This document shows, in pieces, positions 384 to 51,706 of a stretch of 64,000 bases of DNA. Below the pieces are notes generated by a model. It worked only from the letters and a program-made list of their open reading frames with translations. It searched no databases and had not been told where the DNA came from. The translations under genes were made by a program, and so were the position numbers. Within the stretch, counting starts at the first letter, position 1. Each line of letters starts with the position of its first letter. Source of the DNA: a virus; IMG/VR virus record IMGVR_UViG_3300031595_000166, positions 1-64,000 of that record; one strand, written 5' to 3'.

Positions 384-1142
384 TTATTTTTCCTCAACAA
401 TACAGGACGATTTCAATCCATCCAATACTGCAACTGAATCACATCCATATATGCCAGCCGCATATATAGGGTTTTCTTCAATAATTGCATACTTATCTTT
501 ATCATATCTTCCGAGATCAATTACAAAACTATCAACACATTGAACTCTTTCGTCTTTTAAGAGTTTATTTGTAAATGACACAACATCATTAAAATTGTTT
601 TGGTAATTCTTTGTAAGATTGAACTCTGCCGGTTGTTTTGAGATCTGCATTTGTTTTGTATGAAGCCAATAACAAGAACAAGATATTACTTCTCTGTTCT
701 TTACAACGCATCTGTATTCAGAAGTAAAACTCATAACATCTGATATTAAAACTGGCACCCTATCACTCAATGATGAGTTTAATTCTTTACCAGATCCATA
801 TACTTTTGCTGTAAAAACTTTATCATCTGCTGGTTTTATGAACTTTTCTGTTTCCACTAATCTTGCTTCACCTAAATTAGTAAAAATAACTTTTCTACTA
901 ACATATTCTTCTGGAAGTTTTGCGAGCCAATTTAGTGGATTACGAATAAGTTTCCAGCCCATTTGCTCTGCAATTGTTTCGCAAAACAACCATTCACCAT
1001 ATACGGCTCCAACTAATCCTTTACTTTTTAGATAGTCTGGAACTCGCCAGCTATCACTATATACTGACCAGCCAAGCGCCTGTGCAGTATTGATTAGTGT
1101 TCTGGTTTCAGACTTTATATTTGGTGTTGTGATTAGAAGCAT
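384..1142 (-). CDS. ATP-grasp domain protein (probable carboxylate-amine ligase type)
   Basis: About 252 residues. The C-terminal part carries the ATP-grasp signature: a hydrophobic strand with V-I-D-L-G, then I-I-E-E-N-P, which supplies the metal-binding E-x-N, then a short helix. This resembles phage and bacterial ATP-grasp proteins of the DUF4343 kind; these enzymes join a carboxylate to an amine or thiol through an acylphosphate. The substrate is unknown. I chose the ATG at 1142 because it lies 2 nt after the stop of the upstream peptidase gene; the longer frame would need a TTG and overlap that gene by 34 nt. Pairing with a dipeptidase-like gene hints at peptide chemistry, which is inference. 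Confidence 0.7.
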   Translation of the reverse strand: MLLITTPNIKSETRTLINTAQALGWSVYSDSWRVPDYLKSKGLVGAVYGEWLFCETIAEQMGWKLIRNPLNWLAKLPEEYVSRKVIFTNLGEARLVETEKFIKPADDKVFTAKVYGSGKELNSSLSDRVPVLISDVMSFTSEYRCVVKNREVISCSCYWLHTKQMQISKQPAEFNLTKNYQNNFNDVVSFTNKLLKDERVQCVDSFVIDLGRYDKDKYAIIEENPIYAAGIYGCDSVAVLDGLKSSCIVEEK

Positions 1143-1144
1143 TG

Positions 1145-1894
1145 TTATACCAAGTGAGAAAAGACCGGCGAACTCCAAACTAACTTTTCCATTGCAGCTT
1201 TATCGAGATATCGTGTTTTAATTGGATTTTGAATGAAACTTAGAATATCACCACCAGCATAACAATGATATGATTTAGACTGATTACTAATTGAAACACT
1301 ACGAACCGGATTTCCATCAACGAAGTGAAGCGCCGCGTGATCATCAATAGCGTATCCACTTTTGATATTGTTATCAAGCATTTCTTTTTCGTATGCTTCT
1401 CTTCGCATTTTTGAACTATAATGCGGGCAATTGCTATATGGCAAAATACCAAGACAAGGCATTACGCTGAGTTTTCCGGGCACGCTATCAGTAATGCATT
1501 CATCGAACCATACGACGCTACCAGCGCTTCCACCAGATAGGATGATACCAGCATCGTAAGCATCGCGCAAGGCGCTGTCAACTTTCCATTCATTCCATAG
1601 AATGATCATATTTCTGCTATGACCGCCACCAACAAAAACAATATCATTACTCATAATGATATCTTTTATATCTTTAGTGGGTGGATTAAATAATGAAAGG
1701 TATGATGGGATACAAGGGAACCTTTCAAAATATTTTTTAAAATAATTTATGTAGTCAGGATTATCTCCCGATGCTGTTCCTAAAAATAAAATACGAGGAT
1801 TAATTTTTTGGGATTGAGACAAAATATACAATTCAATAGACGGATTTTTATCGTCTAATCCACCAGAACCGATTGCAATTATTTGCTTGGGCAT
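1145..1894 (-). CDS. Peptidase S51 (dipeptidase E-like)
   Basis: 249 residues, full length for peptidase E. N-terminal strand I-I-A-I-G-S-G-G, an F-V-G-G-G-H-S-R-N motif near residue 87, and the nucleophile elbow S-G-G-S-A-G-S with the predicted catalytic Ser123. A later P-H-Y-S-S could supply the His region. Family members cleave Asp-X dipeptides or related substrates such as cyanophycin fragments. It is the first minus-strand gene after the plus-strand GIY-YIG gene and runs straight into the ATP-grasp gene. Specificity cannot be read from sequence. Confidence 0.8.
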   Translation of the reverse strand: MPKQIIAIGSGGLDDKNPSIELYILSQSQKINPRILFLGTASGDNPDYINYFKKYFERFPCIPSYLSLFNPPTKDIKDIIMSNDIVFVGGGHSRNMIILWNEWKVDSALRDAYDAGIILSGGSAGSVVWFDECITDSVPGKLSVMPCLGILPYSNCPHYSSKMRREAYEKEMLDNNIKSGYAIDDHAALHFVDGNPVRSVSISNQSKSYHCYAGGDILSFIQNPIKTRYLDKAAMEKLVWSSPVFSHLV

Positions 1895-16734: not shown

Positions 16735-17145
16735 TTATAGCAATCGCAATCGTTTTATCGATTTGCTAACGGTGCTCTTAAGTATCGGAGATAGGCTTGC
16801 ACAAGTTTCGGTTCCCGGTTCAAGTTCCGTTTTCCCGTTATCTTTGACAACAAAAAAATTATCTTTACCAAACTCTATCTTCAACTCTTCCCATTCCTTG
16901 TCGTCCGCTTTCAGTATAATCTTCGTTGAGCCGTTTGTCAACCAGCGCGTGGTTAGCTCCGTATGATTTAATTCATTTTGAGGTAAGCAATGTAATTTTG
17001 CATTAATCGCCAGCGCCTTGAAGTAATGAATTAATGCATACTGTATCGAATGTCCAATTTGGGCGCCAGTCTTTCCAATACTCATACCCAATTCTTCTCT
17101 CACAATAATATACATTACCACTGGATCGTAAGTATTTTCAGGCAT
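16735..17145 (-). CDS. Pth2-type peptidyl-tRNA hydrolase
   Basis: 136 residues from the ATG at 17145. Pth2 fold markers: Y-I-I-V-R-E-E-L-G-M-S-I-G-K-T-G-A-Q-I-G-H-S (in two parts: catalytic Lys and the A-Q-x-x-H helix), then K-I-I-L-K-A-D-D-K-E-W-E and the T-E-L-E-P-G-T-E-T loop. The family releases peptides from tRNA and is mostly archaeal and eukaryotic but is found in large phages. The C terminus ends R-L-R-L-L. It fits a tRNA-recycling role together with the other translation genes here. Confidence 0.85.
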   Translation of the reverse strand: MPENTYDPVVMYIIVREELGMSIGKTGAQIGHSIQYALIHYFKALAINAKLHCLPQNELNHTELTTRWLTNGSTKIILKADDKEWEELKIEFGKDNFFVVKDNGKTELEPGTETCASLSPILKSTVSKSIKRLRLL

Positions 17146-17194
17146 CGTTTTTTCTCCCATCTTTTTACATCGTTATTCTTATACTGTGGAATGC

Positions 17195-26776: not shown

Positions 26777-27748
26777 TCAATCTACTTTATACACATTAAC
26801 AAGAAAACTATTACTATCAACTTCAATCTTTTTCGAATCCTTGTTGCCCCAATTATCTGGCAACAATGCAATATGATTCGCAAGTAATTCTTTTTTCAAT
26901 TTATCTTTATATTTAGCAATAACATTTGCCTCTTTTGGCATACAGCAGATTTCAATCTCTACTCTATCTGTCAATTCCAATTCAAGTTCTTTTCGAACAT
27001 TTTGCAATGCAGATTTCAAGTCGGCAATAAATCCTTGCTCCAACAATTCAGGAGTTAAATTAGTGTCAAGAATGATTACCCCCGACCTGTTTGATGCAGA
27101 AGCATAACCCGCTTTTGATACGAACTCAACTTCAATATCACTCAATGTTAGATCAATATCGCACATTCTAACTGTTTCTTTATTTTCAAGCAGTTTATAC
27201 AAGTTTTTCCTATCGGCAAAACTCATTTTTGCCAATTCAGCTTTCAGTCCGTTTGCTTGCTTTCCAGCGCCACGCTTACCAAGAACTCGAAAATTAGGTT
27301 TCAATACCATATCGGTAAATTCATTTGCATTCTCAATGAATACAACTTTCTCAACATTCAATTCATCTCCAAGAATATTAGCATATTCGTTATGTTTGCA
27401 ATCAACATATACCATATAATTTTGAACTTGTTTGTCTGAATATAATACATACGCTGTGCGTAATGGCTGTCGATTACGGATCTTTACATCCGCACGAACC
27501 TTATGCCCCATCTCACACATATCGCGAATTGAACGCATACGATCAATCAATTCAAAATCAACATCGCTCAGTGGTAATTTATCTACACTGACGATAGTGA
27601 AGTTTGGATCGTTTTGATATTCCACCTGATACTCTTTGATCAGTTGTTCTGATTTATCGTCAATGGAATTGAATGACGCGAATGCTGTCCATTCCTGAAC
27701 GAATCCATTATCGTTTGTTGATTTGTAGCGAACTGTGTATTCACGCAC
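26777..27748 (-). CDS. Stand-alone C-terminal region of isoleucyl-tRNA synthetase
   Basis: 323 residues, GTG start at 27748 with GAAGGAAA 8 nt upstream. The sequence follows the end of IleRS of the DUF5915-containing type: R-S-I-R-D-M-C-E-M-G-H-K-V-R-A, I-R-N-R-Q-P-L, L-G-D-E-L-N-V-E-K-V, L-K-P-N-F-R-V-L-G-K-R, then D-T-N-L-T-P-E-L-L-E-Q-G and L-x-x-V-R-K-E-L-E-L. The Rossmann catalytic domain (HIGH, KMSKS) and editing domain are absent. It may pair with a split catalytic part outside this window or act alone on tRNA-Ile. Confidence 0.75.
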   Translation of the reverse strand: MREYTVRYKSTNDNGFVQEWTAFASFNSIDDKSEQLIKEYQVEYQNDPNFTIVSVDKLPLSDVDFELIDRMRSIRDMCEMGHKVRADVKIRNRQPLRTAYVLYSDKQVQNYMVYVDCKHNEYANILGDELNVEKVVFIENANEFTDMVLKPNFRVLGKRGAGKQANGLKAELAKMSFADRKNLYKLLENKETVRMCDIDLTLSDIEVEFVSKAGYASASNRSGVIILDTNLTPELLEQGFIADLKSALQNVRKELELELTDRVEIEICCMPKEANVIAKYKDKLKKELLANHIALLPDNWGNKDSKKIEVDSNSFLVNVYKVD

Positions 27749-36113: not shown

Positions 36114-37523
36114 TTATATCAGTTGCTTTTGTATTCTGTTCAATACTACTTCTTTACCCATCACTCCCATTACTTGGAATAATTCAGGGCTTTGTGTCCG
36201 ACCATAAATCGCGCATCTTGTTGGTTGTCCGATCTCTTTTATAGTCATTCCATTTTGTGTTAGCCAATCATTTGTTGCCGTTCTAAGATTATTTTCCGTC
36301 CAATCATTTACGGATTGAAGGAATGTATTGAATGCGGATAGTTTTGTTTTGGCTTCTGGTGTGAGTATTTTTTCGACTGCTGATTGGTCAATGGAGATGT
36401 CGGAACGGAGAACTGGCTCTAACTCCGTTGCTGCGTCCAATAGTGTGCGGGCGCGTGTCCTCACCAGCGGTATTAGTGATGTAAGTCGTCTGGCGCAGAT
36501 GTCAATGCCACGGGCTGTAATGAATGGTAGGAGGTGATCGGCATACACATTATCTGGCGTCAATGTGTTGCTTTTCAGATGTTCATAATTTATGACCGAT
36601 GCCTTGACTGGATCAAACTTACCATCTTTACGAACACAATTTTCAAGTGAAAACTTTTCAATTAGTTCATTAATCGAAAACAATTCTTGATCTTTATAAC
36701 CAAAACCAAGTCTTGCAACAATATTCAATAGAGCTTGTGGTGTATATCCTAAATCTCGAAACTGGAAAACGCTTGCAGCACCATCGCGCTTCGATAACTT
36801 GGATCCTGATTGTGATAGAATGAGGGGGAGATGTCCTTGAATAGGTGGTTCCCACCCGAACGCTTGATATAGCATCAGTTGGCAATTTGCATTAACCATA
36901 TGTTCGCGTCCGCGAATAATATGAGTTATTTCCATTAGATGGTCATCAATAGTCGCACCAAAATTATACATTGCTTGACCATCAGATCGTATAATTATGA
37001 AGTCCTGATTTTCAAAATTAGGTGTGCGCACTGTCTTGAACACCTGATCATCATATTCAATATGACCATCAAGCGGAGCCTTAAATCTAATTACATAATT
37101 TTTAGTTCGATCGTATCCTTTGTCAATGCAGGTTCGTGGATATTTGAATACTGATTTTGGATTATTGGCTTCTATTTCTTTTCGTTGTCGATCTAATTCT
37201 TCTGGTGTGCAATAACAACGATATGCTTTACCTTCTTTGATTAATTGTTCTGCATAATGCTTGTAAATATCTTTGCGCTCGCTTTGACGATACGGAACAT
37301 CATTGCTTACGCCAATACCTTGTTGCCAATCTAACCCGAGCCAACGAAGACTATCGAGAATTGTATTTTCGCTTGCGTCCGATGATCTTTTTTGATCTGT
37401 GTCCTCGACCCTTACCAAGAAAATCCCATTGTGTTTCTTTGCAAGTAGCCAATTATATAGGGCTGTTCTAGCCCCGCCAATATGTAATGAACCGCTCGGA
37501 CTTGGAGAAAATCTTGTCTTCAT
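36114..37523 (-). CDS. gltX: Glutamyl-tRNA synthetase
   Basis: 469 residues from the ATG at 37523 (M-K-T-R-F-S-P-S-P-S-G); an upstream ATG would add five residues. Class I motifs: S-L-H-I-G-G-A-R-T (HIGH equivalent) near residue 13 and G-S-K-L-S-K-R-D-G (KMSKS equivalent). Length equals bacterial GltX, with the anticodon-binding C-terminal half present. It charges tRNA-Glu in the cytoplasm. A full-size synthetase is rare in phages and fits a giant-phage genome. Confidence 0.95.
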   Translation of the reverse strand: MKTRFSPSPSGSLHIGGARTALYNWLLAKKHNGIFLVRVEDTDQKRSSDASENTILDSLRWLGLDWQQGIGVSNDVPYRQSERKDIYKHYAEQLIKEGKAYRCYCTPEELDRQRKEIEANNPKSVFKYPRTCIDKGYDRTKNYVIRFKAPLDGHIEYDDQVFKTVRTPNFENQDFIIIRSDGQAMYNFGATIDDHLMEITHIIRGREHMVNANCQLMLYQAFGWEPPIQGHLPLILSQSGSKLSKRDGAASVFQFRDLGYTPQALLNIVARLGFGYKDQELFSINELIEKFSLENCVRKDGKFDPVKASVINYEHLKSNTLTPDNVYADHLLPFITARGIDICARRLTSLIPLVRTRARTLLDAATELEPVLRSDISIDQSAVEKILTPEAKTKLSAFNTFLQSVNDWTENNLRTATNDWLTQNGMTIKEIGQPTRCAIYGRTQSPELFQVMGVMGKEVVLNRIQKQLI

Positions 37524-37557
37524 TAGTTTTTCTTTCATTTCACATTTTTATTTTTAT

Positions 37558-46693: not shown

Positions 46694-46753
46694 GCCCGGA
46701 CGCCCACACAAAACTACATACCTAAAAACTCAATGATATCAAGTAGTTATCTG

Positions 46754-46828
46754 TCGGACGAGGGAGGCTCGAACTCCCGACCTGCGATTTATAAGTCCGC
46801 TGCTCTAAACCTGCTGAGCTATCGTCCG
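46754..46828 (-). tRNA. tRNA-Ile (anticodon UAU)
   Basis: 75 nt to the discriminator A. Acceptor CGGACGA/TCGTCCG (7 bp), D stem GCTC/GAGC, anticodon arm GCGGA-CTTATAA-ATCGC with anticodon UAU, T arm GGGAG-TTCGAGC-CTCCC. The inner anticodon stem has a G-U and an A-A mismatch, a little irregular. CCA is not encoded. It would read AUA, a codon favoured by AT-rich phage genes but rare in many hosts. Confidence 0.85.
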
Positions 46829-49788: not shown

Positions 49789-50848
49789 GGAACCTTCCTG
49801 TACTCTGTTGCTGACCATATGTAGTTATACTTGGCGATGATGAGTTTTTCAACTTATCAGCCAATTCACCATAACTTTTTGTCTGAGTAAACAACACTTT
49901 GCCATCATCTGGATCATAAGTGATCTTGATATCCTGCTTCATTGATTTACGGAATAGCCTATATGCGTGCTTTGGATTTACTCGGAAGTACAGCATTGCA
50001 CGCTTGATCTCGGTCATAAGTTCATTCTGATAGCAGATACGATCTGGAACACAATCATCGTTATCCCAAGACGAATATTGACCTCTGCGAGACAGTTTAC
50101 AACTGATAGTATAATACTCTTCAAGAGTGTCATAAACTGTATGGATTGTTAATCGCTCCCAGTCTTTGGAAACATAGGATGAGTATCCAGTGCCATAATA
50201 CGAAGTATTCTGAATCGATGAAACTTCATTCGTCCAAAACACAACTGTAAAATCTGAATACCTACCAGACTTCGATGAACTGCTAGCAGAACATACTTGA
50301 TTTAGTTCTCGGAACTTATACTTTTCAAGTGATTGAAGCGTTGGCTTCTTTTCTGATTTTGATATTACGGATGACCATGTAGTCTCGGTTGATTTTGGTG
50401 TGCTCGTAGTTGTTGTAATATCTGAAACTCTAACGAGAGCAGCAGAAGACGCTTGTGTTGCGGAGGATACATTGTCTTTGATTTGTGCTGTATATGCGTG
50501 AGTTTTCAAGTGATTGGTTAGATAGTTGACATGGATATTGGCAGTGCATAGACTACACTTTACCCAGTCTTTGACATTAGAGAGATTGCTTGGCTCTGTC
50601 ATTGGCTTTGTCTCTTTTGGAAAATCACGGTTTTGAATTGATAGCGGGTTGCCATCATCATCAAGAACATCTGAATGACTGTCTGTATATGTAATATGAA
50701 CCTGCTCGCCAAGTTTCTCACCCAACGCAAGGGATGAATTGCGGTCATGAATATTATGATTCTGATTATTGAAACTGCTTCGGGATTGATTGCGATGAGG
50801 ATGTTCGCAGATCATTTGCCCGCATAAGTAGCATATACCTTGTATCAT
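49757..50848 (-). CDS. Zinc-finger protein with C-x-L-C-G head and C2H2-like motif
   Basis: 363 residues. Head C-Y-L-C-G-Q-M-I-C-E-H-P-H-R shared with 46841; then a disordered Asn/Ser-rich part; K-C-S-L-C ... H-L-K-T-H-A at about 100-120 is a C2H2-like finger; a Ser/Thr-rich linker; and a C-terminal folded domain with Y-R-L-F-R-K-S-M-K. No membrane helix. Its end overlaps the M50 protease start by 32 nt. Confidence 0.65.
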   Translation of the reverse strand: MIQGICYLCGQMICEHPHRNQSRSSFNNQNHNIHDRNSSLALGEKLGEQVHITYTDSHSDVLDDDGNPLSIQNRDFPKETKPMTEPSNLSNVKDWVKCSLCTANIHVNYLTNHLKTHAYTAQIKDNVSSATQASSAALVRVSDITTTTSTPKSTETTWSSVISKSEKKPTLQSLEKYKFRELNQVCSASSSSKSGRYSDFTVVFWTNEVSSIQNTSYYGTGYSSYVSKDWERLTIHTVYDTLEEYYTISCKLSRRGQYSSWDNDDCVPDRICYQNELMTEIKRAMLYFRVNPKHAYRLFRKSMKQDIKITYDPDDGKVLFTQTKSYGELADKLKNSSSPSITTYGQQQSTGRFHGFSGYEFDG

Positions 50849-51081
50849 TACTTTATTCCATGCGCAAGAAGAATTGCGGCAAGGGCTTTCTGTTGTGCCT
50901 TGCGTTCGCGCTTGCGTTGTTTCTTTGACTTTGGAACAACGGAATACTTACAACAAGTTGGGCAACGACCATCAAGATATACTTGATTCTTCTTCTTGTC
51001 TGGATCAAGAACTTTTGATTGGCAGACACGGCAGATTAGCCCATAGCAGTAGTCGATTGTTTGAATTAGTTGTGGTTCCAT
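50848..51081 (-). CDS. Small zinc-ribbon protein with basic C terminus
   Basis: 77 residues: Y-C-Y-G-L-I-C-R-V-C and R-C-P-T-C-C form a four-Cys ribbon, then a Lys/Arg-rich helix (K-S-K-K-Q-R-K-R-E-R-K). Likely nucleic-acid binding. One-base overlap with the next gene. Confidence 0.6.
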   Translation of the reverse strand: MEPQLIQTIDYCYGLICRVCQSKVLDPDKKKNQVYLDGRCPTCCKYSVVPKSKKQRKRERKAQQKALAAILLAHGIK

Positions 51082-51153
51082 TTTTGTTATGCTTGGAATA
51101 TAGCCATTGGCTGTGGCAATGTCAATGTGTGTTGGTGTAAGCTAAAAACTAAG

Positions 51154-51289
51154 AAAGGCACAAAAATCTAGCAGCGTTTTCCGACCTGATGTGATGTATA
51201 GGTTCATTCGGTAAGTTCCTGCAATCGCCGGAAGACCGAGGAAGTTATATTTCACGACCGGAAGCGGTGCTTATGATTTTAGTGCCCTT
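51154..51289 (-). ncRNA. Structured RNA or terminator closing the tRNA-like array
   Basis: A 15-nt inverted repeat (51154-51168 with 51275-51289, one T-T mismatch and one G-U) closes a 136-nt segment with inner hairpins TCGGT/ACCGA, TTCC/GGAA and CCG/CGG. The outer stem is followed by CTTAGTTTTTAG, so it could be a 3' processing or termination signal for the array. It does not fold like the four tRNA-like units. Confidence 0.5.
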
Positions 51290-51309
51290 GCTTATCTAAA
51301 AGAATAAAT

Positions 51310-51386
51310 TGGTGAGGAAGCCTGAGGCGAGGCAGGATTTCAATATCCGAAGATATTGCGATCTAACAATCTTGATCTACTTCCCC
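51310..51386 (-). ncRNA. tRNA-like RNA 4 (no anticodon)
   Basis: 77 nt. Acceptor GGGGAAG/CTTCCTC with G2-U71, D stem GATC/GATC with a 10-nt loop lacking the usual GG, then G, then an 18-nt hairpin CAATATC-TTCG-GATATTG in place of the anticodon arm, variable AAAT, T-like arm CCTG/CAGG, A73 and encoded CCA. The hairpin has 7 perfect pairs and a UUCG tetraloop, so no anticodon can be presented. Confidence 0.75.
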
Positions 51387-51387
51387 A

Positions 51388-51463
51388 TAGTGACGCTACG
51401 TCCGATGAAGGAACGACTTACTGATCCAAGGATCAGTCGAGCTTCTGTTTACTCCATAGCGCC
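51388..51463 (-). ncRNA. tRNA-like RNA 3 (no anticodon)
   Basis: 76 nt. Acceptor GGCGCTA/TAGCGTC with G2-U71, D stem GAGT/GCTC, hairpin ACTGATC-CTTG-GATCAGT (7 bp, CUUG loop), variable AAGT, T-like arm CGTTC-CTTCATC-GGACG (5 bp), A73 then CTA. One base separates it from unit 4. Different sequence from the other units but the same fold, so pairing is preserved by compensating changes. Confidence 0.75.
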
Positions 51464-51483
51464 GTAATAAAAACTATAAAACT

Positions 51484-51556
51484 TCGTGAGCTCGTTCCGT
51501 TTGAGGGAAGCCTCTTAATCCGAAGACTAAGCGAACGTTCTGCATTCTGCGAGCCC
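51484..51556 (-). ncRNA. tRNA-like RNA 2 (no anticodon)
   Basis: 73 nt. Acceptor GGGCTCG/CGAGCTC with G2-U71, D stem GAAT/GTTC, hairpin CTTAGTC-TTCG-GATTAAG (7 bp with one G-U), variable AGGC, T-like arm TTCC-CTCAAAC-GGAA, A73 then CGA. The T loop CTCAAAC is close to the canonical TTCAAAC. U-rich spacers flank the unit. Confidence 0.75.
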
Positions 51557-51567
51557 ATAATAAAAAC

Positions 51568-51639
51568 TGGTGAGGTGATCCGGTATAAGCGGAATTTCCT
51601 TGCGCGAACGCACGGCGATCTCTCTTGATCTATCACCCC
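51568..51639 (-). ncRNA. tRNA-like RNA 1 (no anticodon)
   Basis: 72 nt. Acceptor GGGGTGA/TCACCTC with G2-U71, D stem GATC/GATC, hairpin CCGTGCG-TTCG-CGCAAGG (one mismatch), variable AAAT, T-like arm TCCG-CTTATAC-CGGA, A73 and encoded CCA. First unit after the promoter, about 32 nt into the transcript. Confidence 0.75.
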
Positions 51640-51677
51640 GTCTTTCGGTCATTCACTTTCGCGTCCGACTTACCTAC

Positions 51678-51706
51678 AATCTAAGTCTGCTACCTGCCGT
51701 TGTCAA
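51678..51706 (-). promoter_or_regulatory. Sigma70-type promoter of the tRNA-like array
   Basis: -35 TTGACA (51701-51706), 17-nt spacer, -10 TAGATT (51678-51683). Predicted start about 51671. No start codon with a ribosome site follows, so the promoter serves the RNA array. Confidence 0.75.

Follow-up and report, generated by a model that had tools for sequence, protein, structure and literature searches.

Mimics of tRNA are known as such from the 3' ends of plant viral RNAs, from tmRNA and from YrlA. Bacterial Y RNAs such as YrlA are non-coding RNAs with a tRNA-like domain, and their protein partner is TROVE/Ro. Phages are known to bring along tRNAs and a few synthetases of their own, which help decoding or make up for tRNAs lost to host defence. 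TROVE and a tRNA-like partner have also been mentioned in jumbo phages (PMC7824862).

In the present study, a tandem array of tRNA-like units was analysed in the DNA of a large virus that is uncultured and almost certainly a phage. The window, i.e. the whole stretch of DNA under analysis, comprises 64 kb of an IMG/VR record of 157,262 bases (record G000). Like YrlA, the array is a tRNA mimic in a predicted non-coding RNA, but its units are tandem, CCA-ended and without an Rfam match. Identity with a Y RNA was rejected, as the TROVE protein is absent from G000 (a fragment) and from a second array-bearing virus, G011. With the tRNA-like structures of plant RNA viruses and with tmRNA the array shares cloverleaf mimicry, an acceptor-like CCA end and the absence of normal decoding. 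Unlike the plant viral structures, it resides in a bacterial DNA virus, has three or four tandem units and does not form the 3' end of a genomic RNA; unlike tmRNA, it has no tag ORF, and ARAGORN finds no tmRNA. CsrB-type sponge RNAs and type III antitoxin RNAs carry tandem structured binding units in one RNA, which is the way in which the array is proposed to work, but the array units are tRNA-derived, and neither a toxin partner nor a CsrA motif was identified. Nuclease-evading phage tRNAs have an altered anticodon loop yet still decode (PMC10264068), whereas in the array the loop is eliminated.

Results

Cloverleaf units without an anticodon loop

The array consists of four units on the minus strand of the window:

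51568-51639, minus strand: unit 1, cloverleaf without an anticodon loop, UUCG cap, 3' end ACCA
51484-51556, minus strand: unit 2, UUCG cap, 3' end ACGA
51388-51463, minus strand: unit 3, CUUG cap, 3' end ACTA
51310-51386, minus strand: unit 4, UUCG cap, 3' end ACCA, 1 base past unit 3

Four minus-strand cloverleafs at 51310-51639 had been proposed by a sequence-only reading of the same DNA, and both their coordinates and their anatomy proved correct. Each of the four units has 7/7 acceptor pairs, a 2-nt link, a 4-bp D stem followed by one G, a 7-bp stem with a tetraloop (TTCG, TTCG, CTTG and TTCG in units 1-4), a 4-nt variable region, a T-like arm and A73, followed by CCA, CGA, CTA and CCA, respectively. 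The 7-bp stem of unit 1 contains a single G.A mismatch, and the T arm has 4 bp except in unit 3, where it has 5 bp. As had also been read earlier, G1-C72, a G2-U71 wobble and A73 are present in all four. The layout of 7-bp acceptor, D arm and T arm is that of tRNA (RF00005). Together with three units from G011 described below, however, all seven lack the 7-nt anticodon loop and have the 7-bp stem plus 4-nt loop instead; likewise, in 7/7 units the D loop is without GG (no G18-G19) and the T loop opens with C, not T54. The units had earlier been described as lacking an anticodon arm. The arm is in fact present and it is the loop that has been swapped for a tetraloop, so that "lacking an anticodon loop" is the more exact wording. 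In agreement with the earlier view, the units very probably cannot decode.

When both strands of the 64-kb window were scanned for the cloverleaf layout, the four units scored 31-33, compared with 29 for the next match and 26 for the best of four whole-window shuffles. The minimum-energy fold of each unit was either the cloverleaf or lay no more than 3 kcal/mol below it; a rival fold competes with the cloverleaf when unit 4 is folded singly. ARAGORN called none of the units. No Rfam covariance model (4227 families) matched the array, and RF00005 gave no match there at E<=10. A group I intron, RNase P RNA, tmRNA and a riboswitch were rejected, Rfam having no match near the array. A coding reading was also rejected, since the array of G011 contains nothing that corresponds to the 67-aa GTG ORF at 51433-51636 and it is the stems that are conserved.

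A syntenic array in a second virus and covariation of the stems

A search with the downstream M50 peptidase identified G011, a 406-kb virus contig. Its locus L142 contains three units at a place syntenic to the window array:

L142 6142-6217: unit of the second array
L142 6231-6306: unit of the second array
L142 6320-6394: unit of the second array

G000 and G011 are collinear across the whole window, mostly at ~70-85% nucleotide identity, and the genes flanking the array are ~72-76% identical. BLASTN between the two arrays gave no match, and an array that is unaligned amid alignable flanks indicates that the fold has persisted through turnover of the sequence.

Covariation was assessed on an alignment of the seven units that was fitted to the model. 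Standard pairs occupied 95.5% of the pair cells, against 57% in shuffles, and both sides had changed in 18 of the 22 pairs (double compensatory changes). The covariation score was 1.05 and fell to 0.07-0.19 when the partners were slid by 1-3 columns. RNAalifold, predicting its own structure on this model-fitted alignment, returned the same 22 pairs. With a blind MAFFT alignment, RNAalifold recovered three of the four helices (D, 7-bp and T) and missed the acceptor, which a gap misplaces. The internal covariation that the sequence-only reading had pointed out was thus borne out in an independent genome, where homologues with compensatory changes do exist. We regard it as virtually certain that the array is a real, conserved structured RNA.

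A predicted larger RNA around the units

Further elements were found on both sides of the units:

51678-51706, minus strand: promoter-like site TTGACA-N17-TAGATT ahead of the RNA (10/12 in a consensus scan)
51640-51669, minus strand: conserved leader GTCGGACGCGAAAGTGAATGAcCgAAAGAC, abutting unit 1, with a small GAAA-capped hairpin
51150-51294, minus strand: conserved rod-like 3' domain, closed by UAAG.AAGGGCAC / GUGCCUUUCUUA and followed by a U-run, GUUUUUAGC
51097-51125, minus strand: second promoter-like site, for the downstream zinc-ribbon gene (11/12 in the window and in L142)
50848-51081, minus strand: gene of a 77-aa protein, next downstream, carrying a repeated C-x2-C pair and a basic tail, 76% identical in G011

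The TTGACA box is common to G000 and L142, the second hexamer being weak in L142. Just 5' of the first unit, 21 nt of the leader (GTCGGACGCGAAAGTGAATGA) are identical in both genomes; taken alone, the leader folds weakly. The rod is 145 nt long, with fold z-scores of -4.3 in the window and -5.0 in L142, and its consensus fold comprises 36 pairs, five of them with double changes. Its closing helix exhibits a compensatory change between the genomes (GGCAC/GTGCC versus GGCGC/GCGCC). A terminator scan found no classical terminator, and the U-run after the rod is the probable 3' end of the RNA. Since the downstream gene has a promoter-like site of its own, the array is suggested to be its own transcription unit. 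The promoter-like site, leader, units, rod with U-run and separate downstream promoter together favour the reading as one RNA, and the array looks like the core of a single RNA of roughly 500 nt that would be transcribed in this form. The 77-aa protein had no Pfam match.

Searches for further members were made with several parts of the locus. Real matches were confined to G011 both for the leader motif, looked for in IMG/VR and in GTDB genomes, and for the rod motif, looked for in IMG/VR. The DNA pattern TAGATCAAGAN{2,10}GATCG gave, among the IMG/VR matches listed, chance matches only and no cloverleaf. Model R1 had no match in the ten related virus records; R2, a covariance model built from all seven units, detected no further arrays in these records, only canonical tRNAs as judged by ARAGORN, mostly tRNA-Glu. 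The array had no blastn match in the INPHARED phage collection. Of the neighbouring proteins, one of 363 aa retrieved no relatives when used as query, and an alignment-based search with the 77-aa protein retrieved G011 only.

Descent from tRNA-Glu

The combination of G1-C72 and G2-U71, present in 7/7 units, occurs in the related viruses in 10/10 tRNA-Glu but in only 1/28 other tRNAs. The 4-nt variable loop (no residue 47), also found in 7/7 units, is shared by 9/10 tRNA-Glu of the related viruses, but also by 5/13 tRNA-Arg and 2/5 tRNA-His. Outside the arrays, the top R2 matches in the relatives were mostly canonical tRNA-Glu genes, and canonical tRNA-Glu genes were again the best matches in huge phages. 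Isotypes were also compared by their mean identity to each unit over the acceptor, D stem, position 26, variable loop and discriminator; Glu came first for every one of the seven, with Lys tied to two decimals for unit 3. One unit outside the window (Lc) is 90% identical to one phage tRNA-Glu with the anticodon and T arms left out. The window units are more diverged from tRNA-Glu (mean 42-49%), and their origin is therefore argued from the acceptor signature, the variable loop and their homology with the L142 array.

The canonical phage tRNA-Glu (related viruses L154-L160; huge phages LR756502 and LR745206) have the same 7-bp acceptor with G1-C72, mostly A73 plus CCA, a 4-nt variable loop like that of the units, and the D stem GUCU/GGAC that is also found in the L142 units; in the close relatives they have G2-U71 as well. 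Where they carry an anticodon loop of 7 nt on a 5-bp stem, the units carry a tetraloop on a stem of 7 bp. The units further differ in having no D-loop GG, a C first in the T loop and, in three cases, CGA or CTA at the end, and in lying all within one predicted non-coding transcript. We are highly confident that the units were derived from tRNA-Glu of the phage lineage.

A phage glutamyl-tRNA synthetase

The window also encodes a synthetase for glutamate:

36114-37538, minus strand: full-length glutamyl-tRNA synthetase (GluRS), comprising a catalytic domain, an anticodon-binding domain and the motifs HIGG and KLSKR

The assignment is based on Pfam matches (tRNA-synt_1c, 2.4e-90; Anticodon_2, 3.2e-26) and on matches to solved GluRS structures (1e-92). 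Among 12 related records, several of which are fragments, full-length GluRS was found in two, G000 and G011, which are also the only array-bearing ones; the ten relatives have neither array nor GluRS. ARAGORN found no ordinary tRNA-Glu in G000 or G011. In 6/10 relatives tRNA genes lie near the R2 matches, and five of these six have tRNA-Glu. As G000 and G011 are close relatives sharing a syntenic block, the co-occurrence of array and GluRS counts as one evolutionary event. Viral contigs outside the clade that bear GluRS, huge phages included, are devoid of arrays, and their tRNA-Glu is either ordinary or missing. A match to Acinetobacter gltX was set aside as a viral GluRS because its DNA looks bacterial. 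In our judgement a functional link between the array and GluRS is plausible, falling just short of an even prospect. The sequence-only reading, right about the structure, had overlooked this link as well as the tRNA-Glu origin and the larger RNA.

The phage GluRS itself (window 36114-37538, minus strand; G011 359051-360463) is a mosaic between the two viruses. The catalytic half is ~50% identical, with no BLASTN match between G000 and G011, and the anticodon-binding half has 73-97% identity, which suggests catalytic-domain exchange or unequal constraint. The window further encodes, at 26777-27748 on the minus strand, a stand-alone protein that resembles the C-terminal domain of isoleucyl-tRNA synthetase without the catalytic part (DUF5915, 1.8e-33; IleRS structures, 1e-17), and the same genome has a tRNA-Ile(UAU) at 46753-46828.

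The units were compared with a list of GluRS determinants in tRNA-Glu (PMC9976931). U11-A24 is present in 3/7 units; the other four, which are the window units, have A11-U24, a known variant (PMC4381286). U13.G22 and A46 are each present in 5/7 units. The letters at positions 34-36 read UUC, the Glu anticodon, in 5/7 units, but they lie inside the UUCG tetraloop and not in an open loop; they may be a coincidence, UUCG being a favoured cap. Four of the seven units encode CCA, and three have lost C75. In tRNA, contacts of G18-G19 and T54 build the elbow, and class I synthetases approach the inside of the L. The features kept and lost are better explained by a ligand that is bound along the inside of the L than by one of RNase P, EF-Tu or the ribosome.

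Other gene content of the virus

The virus also encodes a complete glyoxylate shunt as auxiliary metabolism, with malate synthase at L005:1190-2758 (record base ~125,190) and isocitrate lyase at L005:8182-9444 (record base ~132,182). An R2K-clade ATP-grasp ligase, an S51 peptidase and a Pth2 peptidyl-tRNA hydrolase (window 384-1178, 1145-1894 and 16735-17160, minus strand), together with a T4 Rnl1-like RNA ligase (L002:6943-8016), constitute a rich translation and RNA-repair set. A fused nucleotidyltransferase-Nudix protein and a nicotinate phosphoribosyltransferase (L003:707-1732 and L002:19263-19997, minus strand) suggest a phage NAD-salvage pathway. Five DUF6745 proteins at window 37692-63083 form an expanded family, and a group I intron at L004:15665-15876 (minus strand) is barely over the Rfam threshold.

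Discussion

From the observed structure, conservation, tRNA-Glu origin and co-occurrence with GluRS we infer a possible mode of action. The phage would transcribe a dedicated non-coding RNA of ~500 nt bearing three or four tandem tRNA-Glu-derived cloverleafs, and the units would be kept within it as repeated protein-binding sites. Offering several sites at once, the RNA would then act as a decoy and compete for a protein that binds tRNA-Glu, GluRS being the most likely one. The phage GluRS would be the partner that the RNA regulates or, with greater likelihood, would stand in for a host enzyme that the decoy affects more strongly, and glutamate charging would thereby come under phage control, to the presumed benefit of the phage. 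That an RNA with tRNA-Glu-like units acts as a decoy or sponge is our tentative reading; the more specific version, in which the arrays seize or inhibit host GluRS while phage GluRS takes over charging, is doubtful. The mimics may be poor ligands of GluRS, which normally requires U34 U35 C36 A37 in an open anticodon loop; the phage's own GluRS is an unexplained difficulty for GluRS as the target, and the GluRS-bearing huge phages without arrays count against the GluRS link. Among the roles listed in the sequence-only reading, a synthetase decoy fits best. Decoys for EF-Tu, RNase P or the CCA-adding enzyme fit less well, because the elbow signature is absent from 7/7 units and C75 is lost in 3/7, and bait for anticodon nucleases is hard to reconcile with the removed cleavage loop.

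Other explanations start from the same features. If phage GluRS charged the units, the resulting Glu-RNA might feed a non-ribosomal transferase or ligase, for which no anticodon is needed; the CCA of 4/7 units, the kept G1-C72, A73 and D-arm features and the GluRS gene of the array-bearing genomes are in line with such a substrate. However, 3/7 units end in CGA or CTA, neither GluTR (haem-pathway use of Glu-tRNA) nor FemAB was found in G000 or G011, and GluRS is strongly anticodon-dependent (PMC9976931), which makes this explanation quite improbable. The loss of C75 in 3/7 units and the absence of GluTR and FemAB are also why we favour a decoy over an amino-acid donor. The units could alternatively serve against host defence by occupying a tRNA-targeting effector that is unable to cleave them without an anticodon loop, effectors of this kind being anticodon nucleases, acceptor-end nucleotidyltransferases and acetyltransferases. 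The genome also has a T4 Rnl1-like RNA ligase and PTH2, and by analogy phage tRNAs evade anticodon nucleases via loop changes (PMC10264068). Those known phage tRNAs restore decoding, though, which the units cannot do, and anticodon nucleases mostly read the very loop that is missing, so that an anti-defence decoy appears unlikely.

A structural role would make the cloverleafs compact nuclease-resistant domains or processing signals, with the leader and the 3' rod as the functional parts of a scaffold or ribonucleoprotein. Sequence conservation is indeed higher in the leader and in parts of the rod than in the units, the unit number varies (four versus three) and C75 is not kept. Yet this leaves unaccounted for both the co-occurrence with GluRS and the kept tRNA-Glu acceptor pairs, discriminator, variable-loop length and D-arm features, and we consider it rather unlikely. 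Finally, with tRNA-Glu in the tRNA clusters of related viruses and few tRNAs in both array genomes, the units might be taken for decaying tRNA-Glu pseudogenes of a former cluster. The strong compensatory covariation contradicts this, since decay breaks stems and does not re-pair them; moreover, the same 7-bp stem and tetraloop recur in 7/7 units, and leader, rod and synteny are conserved. The units can hardly be pseudogenes.

The sequence-only reading knew of no described class with this design, and searches of Rfam and of the open-access literature were negative, the latter yielding no description of anticodon-less phage tRNA arrays. A dedicated phage RNA carrying tRNA-Glu bodies in tandem, each without an anticodon, appears to be new as a kind, represented by two genomes and with a function that we infer. 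ARAGORN and Rfam overlook this conserved class of tRNA-derived RNA in viral genomes. A tRNA-Glu body without its decoding part, in tandem and alongside GluRS, points to a non-translational use of tRNAs by phages, and the array suggests a mode of phage interference with tRNA charging that was not known before. If the decoy reading with GluRS as its target is true, host GluRS would be inhibited and phage GluRS substituted for it, which would place an essential step of translation under phage control and establish a new class of regulatory RNA.
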